38,098 nucleotides of DNA, taken from contig JAHDWP010000031.1 in NCBI GenBank assembly GCA_023382715.1, positions 1 to 38,098 on the forward strand. Direction: 5' to 3'. The notes below the pieces were generated by a model, which searched no databases, was not told where the DNA came from, and saw nothing but the letters and a program-made list of their open reading frames with translations. Shown one piece after another: positions 26,089-33,683 of the stretch (positions are counted from its first letter, which is position 1; every line of letters starts with the position of its first letter). The position numbers were made by a program, and so were the translations under genes. The stretch is from Anaerolineae bacterium (GTDB lineage: Bacteria > Chloroflexota > Anaerolineae > Aggregatilineales > Aggregatilineaceae).

Positions 26089-26357
26089 GGCCTGGGGGGG
26101 TGGTTCCGGGTGAGGGCGCTCGCCGATGCGCCGTCCGCGAGGGGAGGCAGTCAGTCCCCGCTCAGAGATTCTAGGGAGAGGTTCGCGTTACGATTTACCT
26201 CATCCCTAAATCCCCTCTCCACACGCGGAGAGGGGGCTTCACTGCACGGCGACTCCCCCGCTCTGTTTATGGCTATGCATTTTCCACAGCTTGGATCGTG
26301 CCTGTCCGCCATCCTCGGCCCTTCTTCCGCGGGGGATACTGTTGGCGAAATGCGTCC

Positions 26358-26385
26358 GTAGGGGCGTATGGCCATATGCCCCTAC
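26358..26385. repeat. Family B palindrome, most perfect copy
   Basis: GTAGGGGCGTATGG and CCATATGCCCCTAC. The arms match except for one position (CGTATGG against CCATATG). Flanking C and G extend the symmetry by one base. Confidence 0.75.
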
Positions 26386-26448
26386 GAGGGCGCAGCAGAG
26401 CAGCGCTTCTACGGGAGGCGGCCAGAGGGAGGGGCCTTCTGCTGCAAC

Positions 26449-26482
26449 AGACTTCCGAAGTCTTCAGAGACTTCGGAAGTCT
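26449..26482. repeat. Family A palindrome, copy 3
   Basis: AGACTTCCGAAGTC and GACTTCGGAAGTCT form a 14-bp stem with loop TTCAGA. Unlike copies 1 and 2 it does not directly follow a gene. Confidence 0.8.
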
Positions 26483-26867
26483 CATCGCCGAGCGCTTTTG
26501 CTGCCAGCAGGATCAGAAGGAAGGGGGAAAGGTACTTCTCAAACGGCCCCTCAATTCCAGCCGGTTTCGACACCCTATCAGCCGCGCGAACCGGTCGCCA
26601 TTTCGCCGGAAATGTGGCATAACATACGTAAGACGCCGGGCAGCCCCTAGCGGAATCGCTGGCTGGCGCCGACAGGCCGGGCCTGGGCTGGCGGCGAGTG
26701 CGCCGCGCACTGCCCTCCAGCCGCGAGGGTACTGCCAGCAGCACCGCTCGTCTGGCTGTTCCGAGCTTGCGCGTCCACTCAGCGATTGGCCGAGGCCCGC
26801 TGCCCGGCGCGCCTGGTTCTGGGAGAGGTGTTCTGGGGCCGTGAGGCCACAGACCGCTATCGCACCG
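26483..26867. other. Long unassigned leader before the cupin gene
   Basis: The gap between the deacetylase and the cupin gene is 824 bases. Its first half is repeats (heptamers, a CCCTCTCC repeat near 26215, families B and A). From about 26630 to 26867 there is GC-rich, repeat-free sequence with no convincing reading frame or start codon. It might be a 5' leader or an unrecognised RNA; I cannot assign it. Confidence 0.4.
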
Positions 26868-26879
26868 AGAGGATACCCT

Positions 26880-27212
26880 ATGAGCGAGTTTGTATTTTTC
26901 GAGGATTTGGCCGCCCTCCTGGCGGAAATCCAGCCGGACAGCATCGTCAGCCGGACGCTGCATGGCGATGGCGATGTGAAAGCTGTGCTGTTCGGCTTCG
27001 ATACAGGCCAGGAACTCTCTGAGCATACTGCCGCGCTGCCGGCCTCGATCTTCGTGCTGCGTGGCGAGGCCGAGCTGAGCCTGGGCGGCGAACGGCGCCA
27101 GGCCGGCCCCGGCACCTGGGTGCACATGCCCCCTAACCTGCCGCATACGGTGGTGGCCCGTTCACCGCTGATCATGCTGCTGCTGCTCTACCGGCGGGGC
27201 GGCGAGAAGTGA
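26880..27212 (+). CDS. Small cupin-domain protein
   Basis: A single-domain cupin of 110 residues, function unknown. The first cupin motif is reduced: GQELSEHT keeps His49 but the usual HxH pair is incomplete, and ASIFVLRGEAEL follows. The second motif reads GTWVHMPPNLPHTV with His82 and His89. Metal binding is possible but not certain with this ligand set. AGAGGA lies six bases before the ATG at 26880; the long open frame upstream is not supported. The hemerythrin-like gene begins 54 bases downstream and they may be co-transcribed. Small cupins of this kind are often sensor or detoxification accessories. Confidence 0.85.
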   Translation: MSEFVFFEDLAALLAEIQPDSIVSRTLHGDGDVKAVLFGFDTGQELSEHTAALPASIFVLRGEAELSLGGERRQAGPGTWVHMPPNLPHTVVARSPLIMLLLLYRRGGEK

Positions 27213-27266
27213 GCTGGCGCGTCGAAGTGCTTGTACTGTAACGTATCATATGGAATGAGGTGTGCT

Positions 27267-27770
27267 ATGACCATTGTTACCCAACCCCTGCGCGACGAGC
27301 ATCAGGAATTGCTGCCACATATCGAGCACATCCGCACGGTTGCCGACCACGTCGGCGACATCCCTGCCGAGTCGCTGCGACGCGGCGTTGATGAGGTTTA
27401 CGATTTCCTCGCCCACCACCTGCTTGTGCACGCCGAAGCAGAAGAACGCGCCCTCTACCCGGTCATCGCCGAGATGCTCGGCGCGCCCGATGCCACCGCC
27501 ACGATGCGCCGCGATCACGTCGAGATCGGGCAGCTCATCGGCGAGCTGGCCGGGCTGCGCGCGCAGATCGGGGAAGGGGCGCTGCCCGTCTCCCTGGCCA
27601 AAGGGCTGCGGCGCGTCCTCTACGGGCTGTACGCCCTGGTGAAGGTTCACTTCGCCAAAGAAGAGGAGGTCTACCTGCCGCTGCTGGATGCGCAGATGAG
27701 TGCTGAGGAGGCCCGGCAGTTGTTTGAGAAGATGGAAGCAGCCGCGCAGGAGGCCAGAACGAGGCATTAG
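27267..27770 (+). CDS. Hemerythrin HHE domain protein
   Basis: A four-helix di-iron protein of 167 residues that could bind O2 or NO, or handle iron. Candidate ligands are spaced as in HHE domains: His12 in DEHQELLPHIEH, His51, His55 and Glu59 in LAHHLLVHAEAEE, His84 in RRDHVEIG, and His128 with Glu132 in KVHFAKEEEVYLP. The ATG at 27267 has AGG six bases upstream. It follows the small cupin by 54 bases and precedes the octaheme cytochrome gene by 105 bases. Several HHE proteins act in nitric oxide or nitrosative stress responses, which would fit that neighbour; this is inference. Confidence 0.9.
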   Translation: MTIVTQPLRDEHQELLPHIEHIRTVADHVGDIPAESLRRGVDEVYDFLAHHLLVHAEAEERALYPVIAEMLGAPDATATMRRDHVEIGQLIGELAGLRAQIGEGALPVSLAKGLRRVLYGLYALVKVHFAKEEEVYLPLLDAQMSAEEARQLFEKMEAAAQEARTRH

Positions 27771-27875: not shown

Positions 27876-29201
27876 ATGACTGAACAACCGAGCAAGAGAG
27901 CGTCCGTCCTGACGGTAGGTCGCGTCCTGGTGCTGGGCCTGGTCGGGGTGATCCTCGTCCTCGGCCTGGTGCTGATCATCATGGCTGTTCAGGAAGCTGG
28001 AGAGACGGCAGAAGGGCCGAAGCGCGTCAACGCCCTGGCCAACAGCGACAACAAGTGCGTCAAGTGCCACGAGCGCGCGACGCCGGGCATTGTCCACCAA
28101 TATGGCTACAGCACGATGGCCGCCGCCAGCGTGAAGTGCGAAGACTGCCACGAAGTGAAAGCCGACTATCCGGGCGCGGTGGAGCACGAAGGCACCTACG
28201 TCCTGGGTTCGCCCACGACGGCCATGTGTGAGCGCTGCCACAAGCAGGAAGTGAAGGAGTTTTACGCCAGCCGCCACGCCTTGCCCGCCTATGTCGCCTA
28301 CTGGGGCACGGATGGCCTCAGCGAAGAGCTGCTTGCTCAGTACCAGGCCATCCCCGAAGGCAGCTTCGCCCCAGACAAAAGCCGCAATGATCTGCACGTG
28401 CTGGAAGGGGAAGCCATCACTCACTTCGCCTGCGAAACCTGCCACAACATCGGCCAGCCGGCCCTCGACGGATCGGTCGGCCAGTGCCAGAAGTGCCATC
28501 TGCGCCACGAGTTCAGCCTGGAGCAGGCGCGCAAGCCCGAAACCTGCAACGCCTGCCACATCGGCCCGGATCATCCGCAGTGGGAAATCTACCACCAGTC
28601 GCCGCACGGCATCGCCTACACGACGCTGGGCCACAACTGGAACTGGGAAGCCGAGCCGGGCACGCTCACCGTGAAAGACTTCCCGGCGGCCACCTGCGCC
28701 ATCTGCCATATAAGCGGTTTCGGCGGGACGGGCACCTCGCACGACGTGGGCGAGCGCCTGACCTGGTATCTGTTCGCCCCCATCAGCGAGCGCCGGCCTG
28801 CCTGGGAGAGCAACAAAGTGCGCATGCAGGGCGTGTGCCTGGAATGCCACAACGACAACTTCATCACCGAGTTCTACGAAGCGGCTGATCTGGCGACCGA
28901 GGCGACCAACGAGTGGGTCCGCGAGAGCAACGAGATCATCCAGCCGCTCAAAGACGCCGGCTTGCTGACCGCTGCCCCCTTCGACGAGCCGATTGACTAC
29001 ACCATCTTCGAGCTGTGGCATCACTGGGGTCGCACGGTCAAATTCGGCGCGTGGATGCAGGGGCCAGACTATACGCAGTGGCACGGCGCGTATGAGGTGC
29101 TGTCCGATCTGGCTGAGCTGCGCGAGATGGTTGCCGACAAGCTGGAGAAGGCCGGTCTCGCGGCGGAAGAAAGCGGTGAGACGACGGACTCAGGTAGCTA
29201 G
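27876..29201 (+). CDS. Membrane-anchored octaheme cytochrome c, hydroxylamine oxidoreductase (HAO) family
   Basis: Extracytoplasmic multiheme enzyme of 441 residues. A single N-terminal helix (about 14-37) anchors it. Eight CxxCH heme sites follow at Cys61, 88, 118, 186, 204, 224, 274 and 321. The segments CHLRHEFSLEQARKPETC, GPDHPQWEIYHQSPHG and TSHDVGERL are HAO-family hallmarks. The fourth site (CETCH, 186-190) corresponds to the catalytic heme. Family members oxidise hydroxylamine or hydrazine, or reduce nitrite or hydroxylamine. The catalytic heme of oxidising enzymes is cross-linked to a tyrosine; Tyr399 in GPDYTQWHG is a candidate but needs alignment. AGGGGG lies six bases before the ATG at 27876. 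Its stop is two bases before the next gene, so the pair is translationally coupled. Confidence 0.9.
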   Translation: MTEQPSKRASVLTVGRVLVLGLVGVILVLGLVLIIMAVQEAGETAEGPKRVNALANSDNKCVKCHERATPGIVHQYGYSTMAAASVKCEDCHEVKADYPGAVEHEGTYVLGSPTTAMCERCHKQEVKEFYASRHALPAYVAYWGTDGLSEELLAQYQAIPEGSFAPDKSRNDLHVLEGEAITHFACETCHNIGQPALDGSVGQCQKCHLRHEFSLEQARKPETCNACHIGPDHPQWEIYHQSPHGIAYTTLGHNWNWEAEPGTLTVKDFPAATCAICHISGFGGTGTSHDVGERLTWYLFAPISERRPAWESNKVRMQGVCLECHNDNFITEFYEAADLATEATNEWVRESNEIIQPLKDAGLLTAAPFDEPIDYTIFELWHHWGRTVKFGAWMQGPDYTQWHGAYEVLSDLAELREMVADKLEKAGLAAEESGETTDSGS

Positions 29202-29203
29202 CC

Positions 29204-30118
29204 ATGTACCATCTGGCAACCGTCTTCCCGCCGATTCGGCGCGTGCCCATCCCGTTCTCGCGCGACCAGATCATGCTGCTGATGGCGGCTGTCAACCTGG
29301 GCTTTCTCGGCCTGGACATCTATCTGGCGCACAATATCAGCGGGACCATCGTGCCGTATGAGTGGATTCCGATCATTTTCGGGCCGGTGGCGGGCGCCAT
29401 CCTGCTCGTCACCGGCCTGCTCGCCCTCAGGCAGCGCCCGCTGGCGACGCTGATCGCGACGGCGGTGCTGCTGGTCAGCATCGCGGTGGGCCTGCTGGGG
29501 GCGTACTTCCACGTTCTGCGCACCGCCTTGCCCGAAGGCCCCTCCGGCGAGCAGATCACCGTCCGGCTGCTGGTATGGGGGCCGCCCTTCCTGGGGCCAC
29601 TGATGTTCTCGCTGGTCGGTCTGTGGGGCATCAGCGCGGCCTGGGTCGAAGAGCCGCCCGACAGCGGGCGGCTGCGCATGCCGGGCGGCTGGCACCTGCC
29701 GCTGCCGCTGAGCAAGACGCGCGCCTACTTCCTGATGATGGGCCTGGGCATCATGGTCACGACCATCAGCGCTGTGCTCGACCATGCCCGCACCGGCTTC
29801 GCGAACGACTGGCTGTGGATTCCGACGGTCATTGGCGTCTTCGGCACCGTCGTCGGGGTGACGCTCGGCTTCATCGAACGCCCCACCCGCGCCGATCTGA
29901 TCACCTACACCGTCGCCATGCTGCTGCTGATCGTCACCGGTCTGGTCGGGGCCTGGCTGCACATCAACGACAACCTCACCTCGTCTGGCGCGTTCGTGGC
30001 GGAGCGCTTCATCCGAGGCGCGCCGTTCCTGGCCCCGCTGCTGTTTGCCAACGTGGGTGCGCTGGGGCTGATCGTCCTGCTCGACCCGCGCTCGGAGGTG
30101 CTGGGCGAGAGTCAGTGA
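29204..30118 (+). CDS. Eight-helix membrane protein with internal duplication, partner of the octaheme cytochrome
   Basis: Not a family I recognise. The 304-residue protein has about eight transmembrane helices in two homologous halves (about 20-150 and 170-295). Aligned landmarks are DIYLAH43 with AVLDH194, GLLGAYFH103 with GLVGAWLH253, and WGPPFLGPLMFSLVG with RGAPFLAPLLFANVG. The paired histidines sit at equivalent helix ends, on the same membrane face within each half, an arrangement that could ligate heme b. No soluble redox motif or cofactor-binding loop is seen. The ATG lies two bases after the octaheme stop, so it is almost certainly a partner, perhaps passing electrons to or from quinones. 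That role is inference. A terminator follows the gene. Confidence 0.85.
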   Translation: MYHLATVFPPIRRVPIPFSRDQIMLLMAAVNLGFLGLDIYLAHNISGTIVPYEWIPIIFGPVAGAILLVTGLLALRQRPLATLIATAVLLVSIAVGLLGAYFHVLRTALPEGPSGEQITVRLLVWGPPFLGPLMFSLVGLWGISAAWVEEPPDSGRLRMPGGWHLPLPLSKTRAYFLMMGLGIMVTTISAVLDHARTGFANDWLWIPTVIGVFGTVVGVTLGFIERPTRADLITYTVAMLLLIVTGLVGAWLHINDNLTSSGAFVAERFIRGAPFLAPLLFANVGALGLIVLLDPRSEVLGESQ

Positions 30119-30154: not shown

Positions 30155-30188
30155 AAACAGGGAACTGGCTGGTCTGGTTCCCTGTTTT
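30155..30188 (+). terminator. Terminator of the octaheme operon
   Basis: AAACAGGGAAC / GTTCCCTGTTT, a perfect 11-bp stem with an 11-base loop, ending in a TTTT run. It is 36 bases after the membrane-protein stop. Confidence 0.85.
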
Positions 30189-32568: not shown

Positions 32569-33063
32569 TTATTCGGCCTGGCGCGCGCCCAGCTCGCGGT
32601 CGAGGATGAGCAGGGCCACGCCGGAGTCGCCGGCCAGCTTAAGCTGCTCCACGACCGCATCAGCAGACGCCTCTTCCTCGACCTGCTCATCCACGAACCA
32701 TTGCAGGAAGCTGTCGCTGGCGTGGTCGCGCTCTTCGACGGCCAGGTTGACCAGCCCGTGAATCAGGCCGGTGACCTTCTGCTCGTGGGCCAGCGCATTC
32801 TCGAAGACGGCCAGCGACGACGCCCATTCGGCGGGCACCGCGCCCACCGGCTCCAGCATCACCCGCCCGCGCCGCTCCACGATGAAGTCGAAGAACTTCA
32901 GGGCATGGCCCAGCTCTTCATTGGCCTGCAGGCGCATCCAGTGGGCGAAGCCCGGCAGGTTCCTGTGCTCGAAGTAGGCCGCCATCGCCAGGTAAAGATA
33001 GGCGGAGTGCAGCTCGGCATTGATCTGCTTGTTCAGGGCGGCTTGCATTTTCTCGCTCAACAT
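32569..33063 (-). CDS. ftnA: Non-heme ferritin (FtnA type)
   Basis: Iron-storage ferritin of 164 residues, forming a 24-mer shell that oxidises Fe(II) and stores Fe(III). Ferroxidase residues are conserved at the same positions as in E. coli FtnA: Glu17, Glu50 and His53 (site A), Glu94 and Gln127 (site B), and Glu49, Glu126, Glu129 and Glu130 (site C). AGGAGGT lies five bases before the ATG at 33063. It is downstream of the bacterioferritin-like gene on the same strand, 68 bases away with a GC hairpin between, and both probably share a promoter at 33684-33712. Confidence 0.93.
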   Translation of the reverse strand: MLSEKMQAALNKQINAELHSAYLYLAMAAYFEHRNLPGFAHWMRLQANEELGHALKFFDFIVERRGRVMLEPVGAVPAEWASSLAVFENALAHEQKVTGLIHGLVNLAVEERDHASDSFLQWFVDEQVEEEASADAVVEQLKLAGDSGVALLILDRELGARQAE

Positions 33064-33097
33064 AGCGCACCTCCTGGTGCTATCAACCTGAAATGTT

Positions 33098-33122
33098 CGC
33101 GCCGGAGCCAGGCTCCGGCGCG
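33098..33122 (-). terminator. GC hairpin between the two ferritin genes
   Basis: A 12-bp near-perfect palindrome, CGCGCCGGAGCC / GGCTCCGGCGCG, with only one base between the arms. No U-run follows on the reverse strand, so it is more likely an mRNA-stabilising or partial-termination hairpin. Confidence 0.5.
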
Positions 33123-33131
33123 GGGGAAGTG

Positions 33132-33554
33132 CTACTCCCAGTTCTTGAGCAGCTTGGCCGTCTCTTCGGCGTGACCGGTCTCGTCGCGCACCATATCCTC
33201 CAGCGCGACCACCAGGCCCTTGTCGCCGAATTCTTCGGCCTGCCTGGCCCGCTCGGTGTAGTCGCGGCCCGCCTGCTGCTCGGCCTTGAGGATGGCTTCG
33301 AGCATCTCGCGCGGGGTCGCTGCCGGCGGGACGGGGCGCGGCGTGGTGGCCGGCTCGCCGCCCAGGGCCACGACCTTGTCGGCCAGGAACTGGGCGTGCA
33401 GCAGCTCGTCGGCGATCTCAGTCTGCATGAACTGCACCAGTTGGGGCCGCCAGGGGCCGGTGACGCGGGCTGAATAGGTCAGGTATTGGATGATCGCCTG
33501 CAGCTCGCCAGCCAGGTCTTCATTCAACGCTTTGATCAATGTCTGTTTGTCCAT
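33132..33554 (-). CDS. Bacterioferritin-like di-iron protein
   Basis: A ferritin-like four-helix protein of 140 residues. The di-iron ligands follow the bacterioferritin pattern: Glu17, Glu50 and His53 (ELLH), a Glu around residue 92, and Glu125 and His128 (ETGH). The methionine that binds heme in true bacterioferritins is leucine here (E-L-L-H), so it should be heme-free. A Pro-rich insertion (about 66-80) interrupts the usual spacing, and the protein is shorter than the typical 155-160 residues. GGAGGTGG lies before the ATG at 33554; an upstream in-frame ATG has weaker support. It is first in a two-gene transcript with ferritin. Confidence 0.88.
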   Translation of the reverse strand: MDKQTLIKALNEDLAGELQAIIQYLTYSARVTGPWRPQLVQFMQTEIADELLHAQFLADKVVALGGEPATTPRPVPPAATPREMLEAILKAEQQAGRDYTERARQAEEFGDKGLVVALEDMVRDETGHAEETAKLLKNWE

Positions 33555-33683
33555 GAGCAATCCACCTCCATAGTGGCGCATCTCGTAACAAGGCCAGGCC
33601 ACGTGTGGAGACGGAGCGAGCATTGTGGCACAGACCGATTTTCGCGCATCGGGACCGCTCTGGCGCGGCTCGCCGATAAGGAA

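Follow-up and report, generated by a model that had tools for sequence, protein, structure and literature searches.

We analysed a stretch of 38,098 nucleotides from an Anaerolineae bacterium of the phylum Chloroflexota (contig JAHDWP010000031.1; the whole stretch is hereafter called the window), with a focus on two adjacent genes on its + strand that we discuss as a candidate quinol-linked reductase of small nitrogen oxides. The first gene (27876..29201, + strand) encodes an HAO-family octaheme c-type cytochrome of 441 amino acids (aa) with an N-terminal membrane anchor, hereafter the octaheme, and the second (29204..30118, + strand) encodes an eight-helix membrane protein of 304 aa, which we describe as a putative quinone-coupled electron-transfer subunit. 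The octaheme open reading frame (ORF) begins with an ATG at 27876, and the motif AAGGGGG ends six bases ahead of it. Its stop codon ends at 29201 and the ATG of the membrane protein follows at 29204, with two bases (CC) between them.

The octaheme belongs to the HAO family

The octaheme matched Pfam family PF13447 (Multi-haem_cyto) with an E-value of 3e-31 (109.1 bits, cut-off 21.9). It contains eight CXXCH motifs and, in its structural model, one N-terminal helix spanning residues 8-41. The relatives found in the PDB are 4qo5, which we take to be IhOCC, the HAO structures 1fgj, 4fas and 6m0p, and the HAO-like structures 6h5l and 4n4j. Against the hydrazine dehydrogenase family NF052343 the octaheme scored 86.3 bits, below the curated cut-off of 900.

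Residues D232-H233 of the octaheme (codons at 28569..28574, + strand) align with Asp267-His268 of Nitrosomonas europaea HAO, the numbers of the latter being counted from the alignment. These two HAO residues presumably have a catalytic role and a position near heme 4. The Asp-His pair is invariant in 29 of 29 aligned octahemes (those of loci L013, L015, L024 and L035 are too partial for this alignment), and Ruegeria HAO, when aligned, has it too. The cross-link residue Tyr467 of HAO, which lies in the stretch ..NPGGWTY.. there, is replaced in the octaheme by Q401 (codon at 29076..29078, + strand), and Gln occupies this position in all 29 aligned octahemes, in a part of the alignment with few anchor residues locally. 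We also considered Tyr399 (in GPDY) as the cross-link residue and rejected it, because Tyr467 falls at Q401 when the HAOs of Ruegeria and N. europaea are aligned with the octaheme.

With the HAO of nitrifiers, the octaheme shares eight hemes, PF13447 and the equivalents of Asp267/His268, but it differs in the Gln at the Tyr467 position and in having no HaoB neighbour; HaoB does adjoin the Ruegeria HAO. As judged from these alignments, the octaheme is an HAO-family protein and not an HAO in the strict sense, and it is more likely a reductase than a hydroxylamine dehydrogenase, since Gln replaces the cross-link Tyr. In the available text of PMC5317091, absence of the cross-link Tyr is taken as supporting a nitrite reductase function. 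We regard the octaheme as a new subgroup within a known kind.

A duplicated four-helix unit makes up the membrane protein

The AlphaFold2 model of the membrane protein (predicted local distance difference test, pLDDT, 85.6; predicted template modelling score, pTM, 0.86) has eight membrane helices, two of them short. Three Pfam hits were obtained, all below cut-off and none of them to the NarI, b561, bc1 cytochrome b or CopD families, and there was no NCBIfam or PDB sequence match. The NapC/NrfH family PF03264 gave no match up to an E-value of 1, and the protein has no CXXCH.

When profiles of the two halves were compared with hhalign, they aligned with a probability of 98.7, an E-value of 2.3e-16 and a score of 98.6, to be compared with 22.5 for the best of 30 column shuffles and 12.5 for the reversed control. 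By this comparison, the protein is built of two tandemly duplicated four-helix units, unit 1 at 29246..29653 and unit 2 at 29705..30085 (both + strand). In an alignment of 34 units (taken from 16 proteins plus both of the G091 genes described below), H29, P42, G82, G85, H89, P114 and P118 are invariant, and H29, P42, G85, H89 and P114 are invariant in an alignment of 53 units. The two unit histidines correspond to H43 and H103 in unit 1 and to H194 and H253 in unit 2 of the window protein, near the ends of helices 1, 3, 5 and 7. Two His per unit and the GxxGxxxH pattern would fit a bis-His heme b. All 33 members of the membrane-protein alignment have more lysine plus arginine (K+R) on the N-terminal side than on the other (mean 13.2 vs 5.7), and therefore the His ends should face the outside, where the octaheme sits.

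Pfam searches with the 34 units gave scattered weak single-unit matches, the best with an E-value of 2.6e-4 in 1 of 34; among the 25 of 45 families listed, b561 was matched once and weakly (E 0.055, one unit). Pfam and NCBIfam searches with six relatives of the module likewise gave one weak match. With NarI, b561, bc1 cytochrome b and CopD-like proteins the module would share its proposed role and its paired-His helices facing one side of the membrane, but it has no Pfam match to them at cut-off.

The two genes are conserved as a pair

A scan of named genomes for the membrane protein returned 22 loci, including 17 in Chloroflexota and 4 in Desulfosporosinus, and a search of 199 genomes of the class gave 16 matches. 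By tblastn, an octaheme lies upstream on the same strand in 22 of the 22 named-genome loci and in 14 of the 16 class-genome matches. The G084 match was rejected as a relative, as it sits inside an Mrp/Mnh-type antiporter subunit, and G091 is a true relative without an upstream octaheme, whose GMC gene set includes two four-helix genes in tandem. Once duplicates are merged (L005 and L007 with L024 and L029, and L001 and L002 with the window), there are 34 distinct loci with the pair, the window among them, in Chloroflexota and Desulfosporosinus, and the pairing is therefore not due to chance. The intergenic gap, which depends on the chosen starts and stops, is at most 14 bases in 27 of the 34 loci and 30 to 547 bases in the others. 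The alignments do not include L040 (D. metallidurans), whose frames are broken and partial.

The reverse search, for octahemes in 199 class genomes (the same sample, going by the genome handles), found some octaheme match in 34. An octaheme of at least 59% identity occurs in 14 genomes, the very ones that have the membrane protein, which is found in none (0/20) of the other octaheme genomes; the chance of such an exact overlap is about 1e-21 if relatedness is ignored. Pairwise distances of the octahemes and of the membrane proteins are also correlated (r 0.64 for the 29 non-Desulfosporosinus pairs among the 32 in the test), with 0 of 2000 permutations reaching as high a value.

Most related octahemes have a known kind of membrane carrier in the same position

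Only more distant octahemes were found in 20 of the class genomes, and we inspected stretches from 17 of these (G061, G096 and G190 fall outside the inspected stretches, and extra copies in G177, G058, G116 and G110 are included). Twelve unfused full-length octahemes with 35-38% identity have a four-CXXCH NapC/NrfH-like ORF directly upstream in 11 cases and a contig edge in one; among the tetraheme-linked cases, PF03264 was tested formally for G014 only. Annotated NapC/NirT genes also lie upstream of octahemes on Desulfobaculum and Desulfosarcina plasmids. Four fused octahemes have a membrane region in front, which in the two that were scanned matches CopD and cytochrome b5, and two more distant octahemes (G155, G177) have a bc1-type cytochrome b nearby. 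The octahemes with tetraheme or fused CopD/b5 carriers are 34-38% identical to the window octaheme. Beside the still more distant copies L158-L160 (G058, G116, G110), we saw no NapC-like, CopD/b5 or bc1-type carrier. On a tree of 50 octahemes, the partner type, scored over 6 groups, requires 5 changes, the minimum possible.

NapC/NrfH-like proteins are quinol oxidisers. The eight-helix protein fills the slot that is held by a membrane electron carrier of a known kind in most of the inspected relatives, and because this is the slot of a NapC/NrfH-like, CopD/b5 or bc1-type cytochrome, a quinone link is the natural reading. The closest parallel is to the epsilon-HAO/IhOCC-type octaheme reductases, which like the pair belong to the octaheme HAO family, have no cross-link Tyr and form a two-gene unit with a membrane electron carrier. 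Their partner is a tetraheme NapC/NrfH, whereas here it is an eight-helix protein without CXXCH. The NapC-linked octahemes that we aligned share the Asp-His pair (4qo5 reads PDVP in the same stretch), and the three of them are 34-37% identical to the window octaheme.

As for the fused octahemes (L141, L142, L143 and L145, in G162, G106, G053 and G126), they are 745-776 aa long, with membrane helices in the N-terminal region and one extra CXXCH. Kinship between the module and their CopD region was considered and rejected (profile comparison probability 0.19%, no relation). In L158 and L160, from G058 and G110, genomes that also carry the pair, the distant octaheme ORF lies beside a nine-CXXCH ORF.

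The four-helix unit also occurs in GMC dehydrogenase gene sets

A profile search with the four-helix unit gave matches in 37 of 400 genomes of the phylum, three of them octaheme-linked (G000, G019, G033). Among the remaining 34 loci, 31 have the gene order module, Gluconate_2-dh3, GMC oxidoreductase, with the unit single or doubled; L115 ends at a contig edge, and the weak matches L122 and L123 have no octaheme or GMC gene nearby by tblastn. Octahemes were looked for by tblastn (E 1e-4) and matched in none of the 34 loci. Some loci have one gene per unit, and the two genes of G091 overlap by ATGA. Plasmids of Frondihabitans (Actinomycetota) and Granulicella (Acidobacteriota) carry the module under the annotation "hypothetical protein", with subunit 3 and then a GMC oxidoreductase behind it. 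In Deinococcus sp. D7000, the module stands ahead of a gene for 865 residues whose annotation is subunit 3 family; a GMC gene of its own is not listed there.

The octaheme-linked and GMC-linked units are homologous (hhalign probability 99.2, E 6.8e-20, score 115, at most 18.7 in 20 shuffles), at about 20-30% identity. The GMC/gluconate 2-dehydrogenase-type sets thus have the same two invariant His per unit as the window module, but their catalytic partner is a flavoprotein with subunit 3, and the unit is sometimes single or split into two genes. Classical gluconate dehydrogenases have a cytochrome c as their third subunit. We hold the chances to be roughly balanced that the four-helix unit represents an undescribed and widespread family of b-heme quinone modules, single or doubled, which would plug into unrelated catalytic partners (HAO-family octahemes on the outside of the membrane, and GMC flavoenzymes), each time replacing a c-type cytochrome subunit and with the His face toward the partner.

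A preliminary description of this DNA had seen in the membrane protein a dedicated partner of the octaheme, to be found beside it across Chloroflexota, and had named an occurrence of homologues mostly away from octahemes as what would speak against this. The neighbourhood was borne out, with the octaheme upstream in the 34 distinct loci. Close relatives were found only next to an octaheme of this kind, but distant ones mostly lie beside Gluconate_2-dh3/GMC genes (31 of 34), and the idea of a dedicated partner did not stand. The company of Gluconate_2-dh3/GMC genes makes the case for a redox role of the protein stronger, not weaker.

Four-helix subunits ahead of gluconate-2-dehydrogenase subunit 3 were seen in Chloroflexota, Actinomycetota, Acidobacteriota and Deinococcota (L055:2974-6204 in G091; L090-L121; L124-L126). 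A distant single four-helix unit lies beside a small lipoprotein-like ORF in G037 (L122:4759-5154), and was kept in the unit alignment A5 as one distant unit.

Flanking genes and physiological context

A hairpin lies 3' of the gene pair (30155..30187, + strand; 14 bp, -21.8 kcal/mol, z -2.45, with 5 of 200 shuffles equally good in the folding test), and is a possible terminator with a short T tract. It is absent from the list produced by the terminator scan, and the promoter scan of the window found none. According to Pfam, cupin and hemerythrin ORFs (26175-27770) lie upstream of the pair and a purine nucleoside permease downstream, and no NapC/NrfH or other cytochrome was found among the scanned neighbours. 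In its account of the locus, the preliminary description was right on the two-base spacing, on the membrane-anchored HAO-family octaheme, on an eight-helix partner matching no named family at cut-off, and on the absence of an adjacent NapC/NrfH-type or other cytochrome. Its terminator closing the unit stood in part: the hairpin is there, but it is followed by a short T-run and is missing from the scan output. By eye, two ferritin-like ORFs lie ~2.5 kb downstream of the pair (32569-33602). A cupin-bearing ORF and one ferritin-type ORF each recur in 3 loci, and a ferritin/rubrerythrin-like ORF, again identified by eye, adjoins an octaheme (L049:4844-6217) of G257, a genome from another class.

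The window genome (98.6% complete) has narG over cut-off and a narGHJI set, and none of NrfA, NirK and NirS is over cut-off in it. In the 14 class genomes with the pair, matches over cut-off were found to NrfA in 2 (one marginal), to NirK in 1 and to NirS-type proteins in 4 (one strong, three weak). G019 has a partial NirK match below cut-off. In the G033 locus (L167:2855-11783), the pair is accompanied by a COX1-family gene and, ~2.6 kb upstream on the opposite strand, by a gene of NirK type that includes a cupredoxin domain. The pair is also carried by D. acididurans (L039), where a Crp/Fnr-type regulator lies ~0.7 kb beyond it; ORFs belonging to the same cluster as this regulator are found at 4 other loci, including the NapC-type locus of G014. 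D. acididurans is listed as a nitrate and nitrite reducer with no NrfA match in the available text of PMC10949509, a text in which we found no mention of the octaheme pair.

A proposed quinol:N-oxide oxidoreductase

We consider it fairly probable that the products of the two genes form a membrane-bound quinol:N-oxide oxidoreductase, in which a doubled b-heme module feeds electrons from menaquinol to an octaheme N-oxide reductase. In each half of the module, the two invariant His at the extracytoplasmic ends of the first and third helices would probably serve as axial ligands of heme b. The module would oxidise menaquinol at the outer face of the membrane, and the electrons would pass through the proposed b hemes directly to the anchored octaheme, where a small N-oxide would be reduced at the non-cross-linked heme 4, most likely nitrite, with NO or hydroxylamine as possible substrates. 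The module would thereby stand in for the NapC/NrfH-type cytochrome of many related octahemes, and in other bacteria it would couple a GMC/gluconate-2-dehydrogenase-type flavoenzyme to the membrane. The preliminary description had suggested a membrane complex linking hydroxylamine, NO or nitrite chemistry to the quinone pool; the pairing and the carrier slot of related octahemes favour such a complex, and the invariant Gln makes hydroxylamine oxidation the less likely direction.

The same complex could in principle run in the oxidative direction, so that the octaheme would oxidise hydroxylamine or some other N compound while quinone would be reduced by the membrane protein. The HAO family membership with the Asp-His pair kept is consistent with this, as is the expectation that the GMC dehydrogenase partners of the module donate electrons to quinone. 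We nevertheless find this direction unlikely, as Gln stands at the cross-link Tyr467 position throughout the aligned octahemes, the lack of this Tyr being associated with nitrite reduction in the source cited above, and as the next related octahemes have NapC/NrfH-like partners, known quinol oxidisers. It is about as unlikely that the eight-helix protein has no redox activity and is an anchor, an assembly factor or a substrate channel travelling with redox enzymes. Such a role would agree with the lack of a naming family match, with the putative nature of its cofactor, and with the octaheme having a TM (transmembrane) anchor of its own, but it would leave unexplained the two invariant His per unit with their GxxGxxxH pattern, the position held by known redox subunits elsewhere in the octaheme family, and the presence of the module in GMC gene sets where a cytochrome c subunit is usual; a single-substrate channel, moreover, would not suit both octaheme and GMC partners. 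Similarly unlikely is the reading that the octaheme is an outward electron outlet (extracellular or metal electron transfer) with the membrane protein as its quinol dehydrogenase, which would suit an anchored multiheme cytochrome in probably monoderm bacteria and has a candidate relative in the surface multiheme ARMA_580 of the chloroflexote Ardenticatena, whose closest match is given in the available text of PMC5808234 as a hypothetical protein of Desulfosporosinus acidiphilus, but the invariant HAO-like Asp-His pair points to small-molecule catalysis, and ARMA_580 has seven hemes and 74 kDa (PMC5808234), vs 441 aa and eight hemes here.

Several observations weigh against the proposed quinol:N-oxide oxidoreductase. 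Heme b and quinone binding by the module are putative, and a search with the eight-helix model in Foldseek found no structural relative (nothing at E <=0.001, best E 0.19), while VIA-align gave a best Z of 8.5, to rhodopsins, with a root-mean-square deviation above 5, a level common for helical bundles. The AlphaFold2 model of the octaheme is poor (pLDDT 65) and was not used for fold search. On the octaheme tree, the label for the eight-helix (8TM) partner taken alone needs 2 changes, because G257 nests inside the 8TM rows; support for the joining of the Desulfosporosinus rows is modest (87/42). The G257 octaheme is 55% identical, its N-terminus resembles a lipobox, an adjoining partner of this kind is missing, and G257 is absent from the matches of the four-helix unit search. 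In G033, a cytochrome b/Fer4/FlpD-type gene lies directly upstream of the octaheme, between the NirK-type gene and the pair, and another carrier is therefore possible there. Among the GMC-linked units, K+R is weakly biased (more on the N-side in 22 of 40, less in 9), and subunit 3 has no convincing export signal by eye or by a crude twin-arginine pattern, which matches 6 subunit-3 ORFs inside the apparent mature domain. NarG is over cut-off in 2 of the 14 pair genomes (NapA was not searched), and nitrate respiration is therefore no constant companion of the pair. Lastly, according to the available text of PMC10949509, D. acididurans has relatives of AsrABC, a nitrite reductase candidate, and of DEACI_1836; for the related Acididesulfobacillus, cytoplasmic AsrABC or DEACI_1836 was proposed by the authors.

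Significance

We found no description of the octaheme/eight-helix pair or of the GMC-linked module in the available text of the open-licence literature searched, which includes PMC10949509, PMC11879220, PMC9530715, PMC5460018, PMC8042283, PMC5808234, PMC3971608, PMC5317091 and PMC7509429. The nearest cases in these texts are Otr with a cytochrome b561 in an Ignavibacteriae metagenome-assembled genome (PMC7509429), and Chloroflexi octaheme genes in operons with subunits of the DMSO-reductase family (PMC3971608).

For one group of octahemes, found in 14 of the 199 class genomes and in Desulfosporosinus, the module may provide a route to the quinone pool that is free of NapC/NrfH. Where a genome has narGHJI but nothing over cut-off for NrfA, NirK or NirS, as is the case for the window genome, the pair would also be a candidate for the nitrite reductase. 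This idea is testable in a cultured strain, because D. acididurans has the pair and, going by the available text of PMC10949509, reduces nitrate and nitrite without an NrfA match. A testable function can likewise be named for the unannotated membrane protein beside gluconate-2-dehydrogenase subunit 3 in four phyla, and this spread of the module over unrelated dehydrogenases is a more surprising result than the octaheme subgroup itself.

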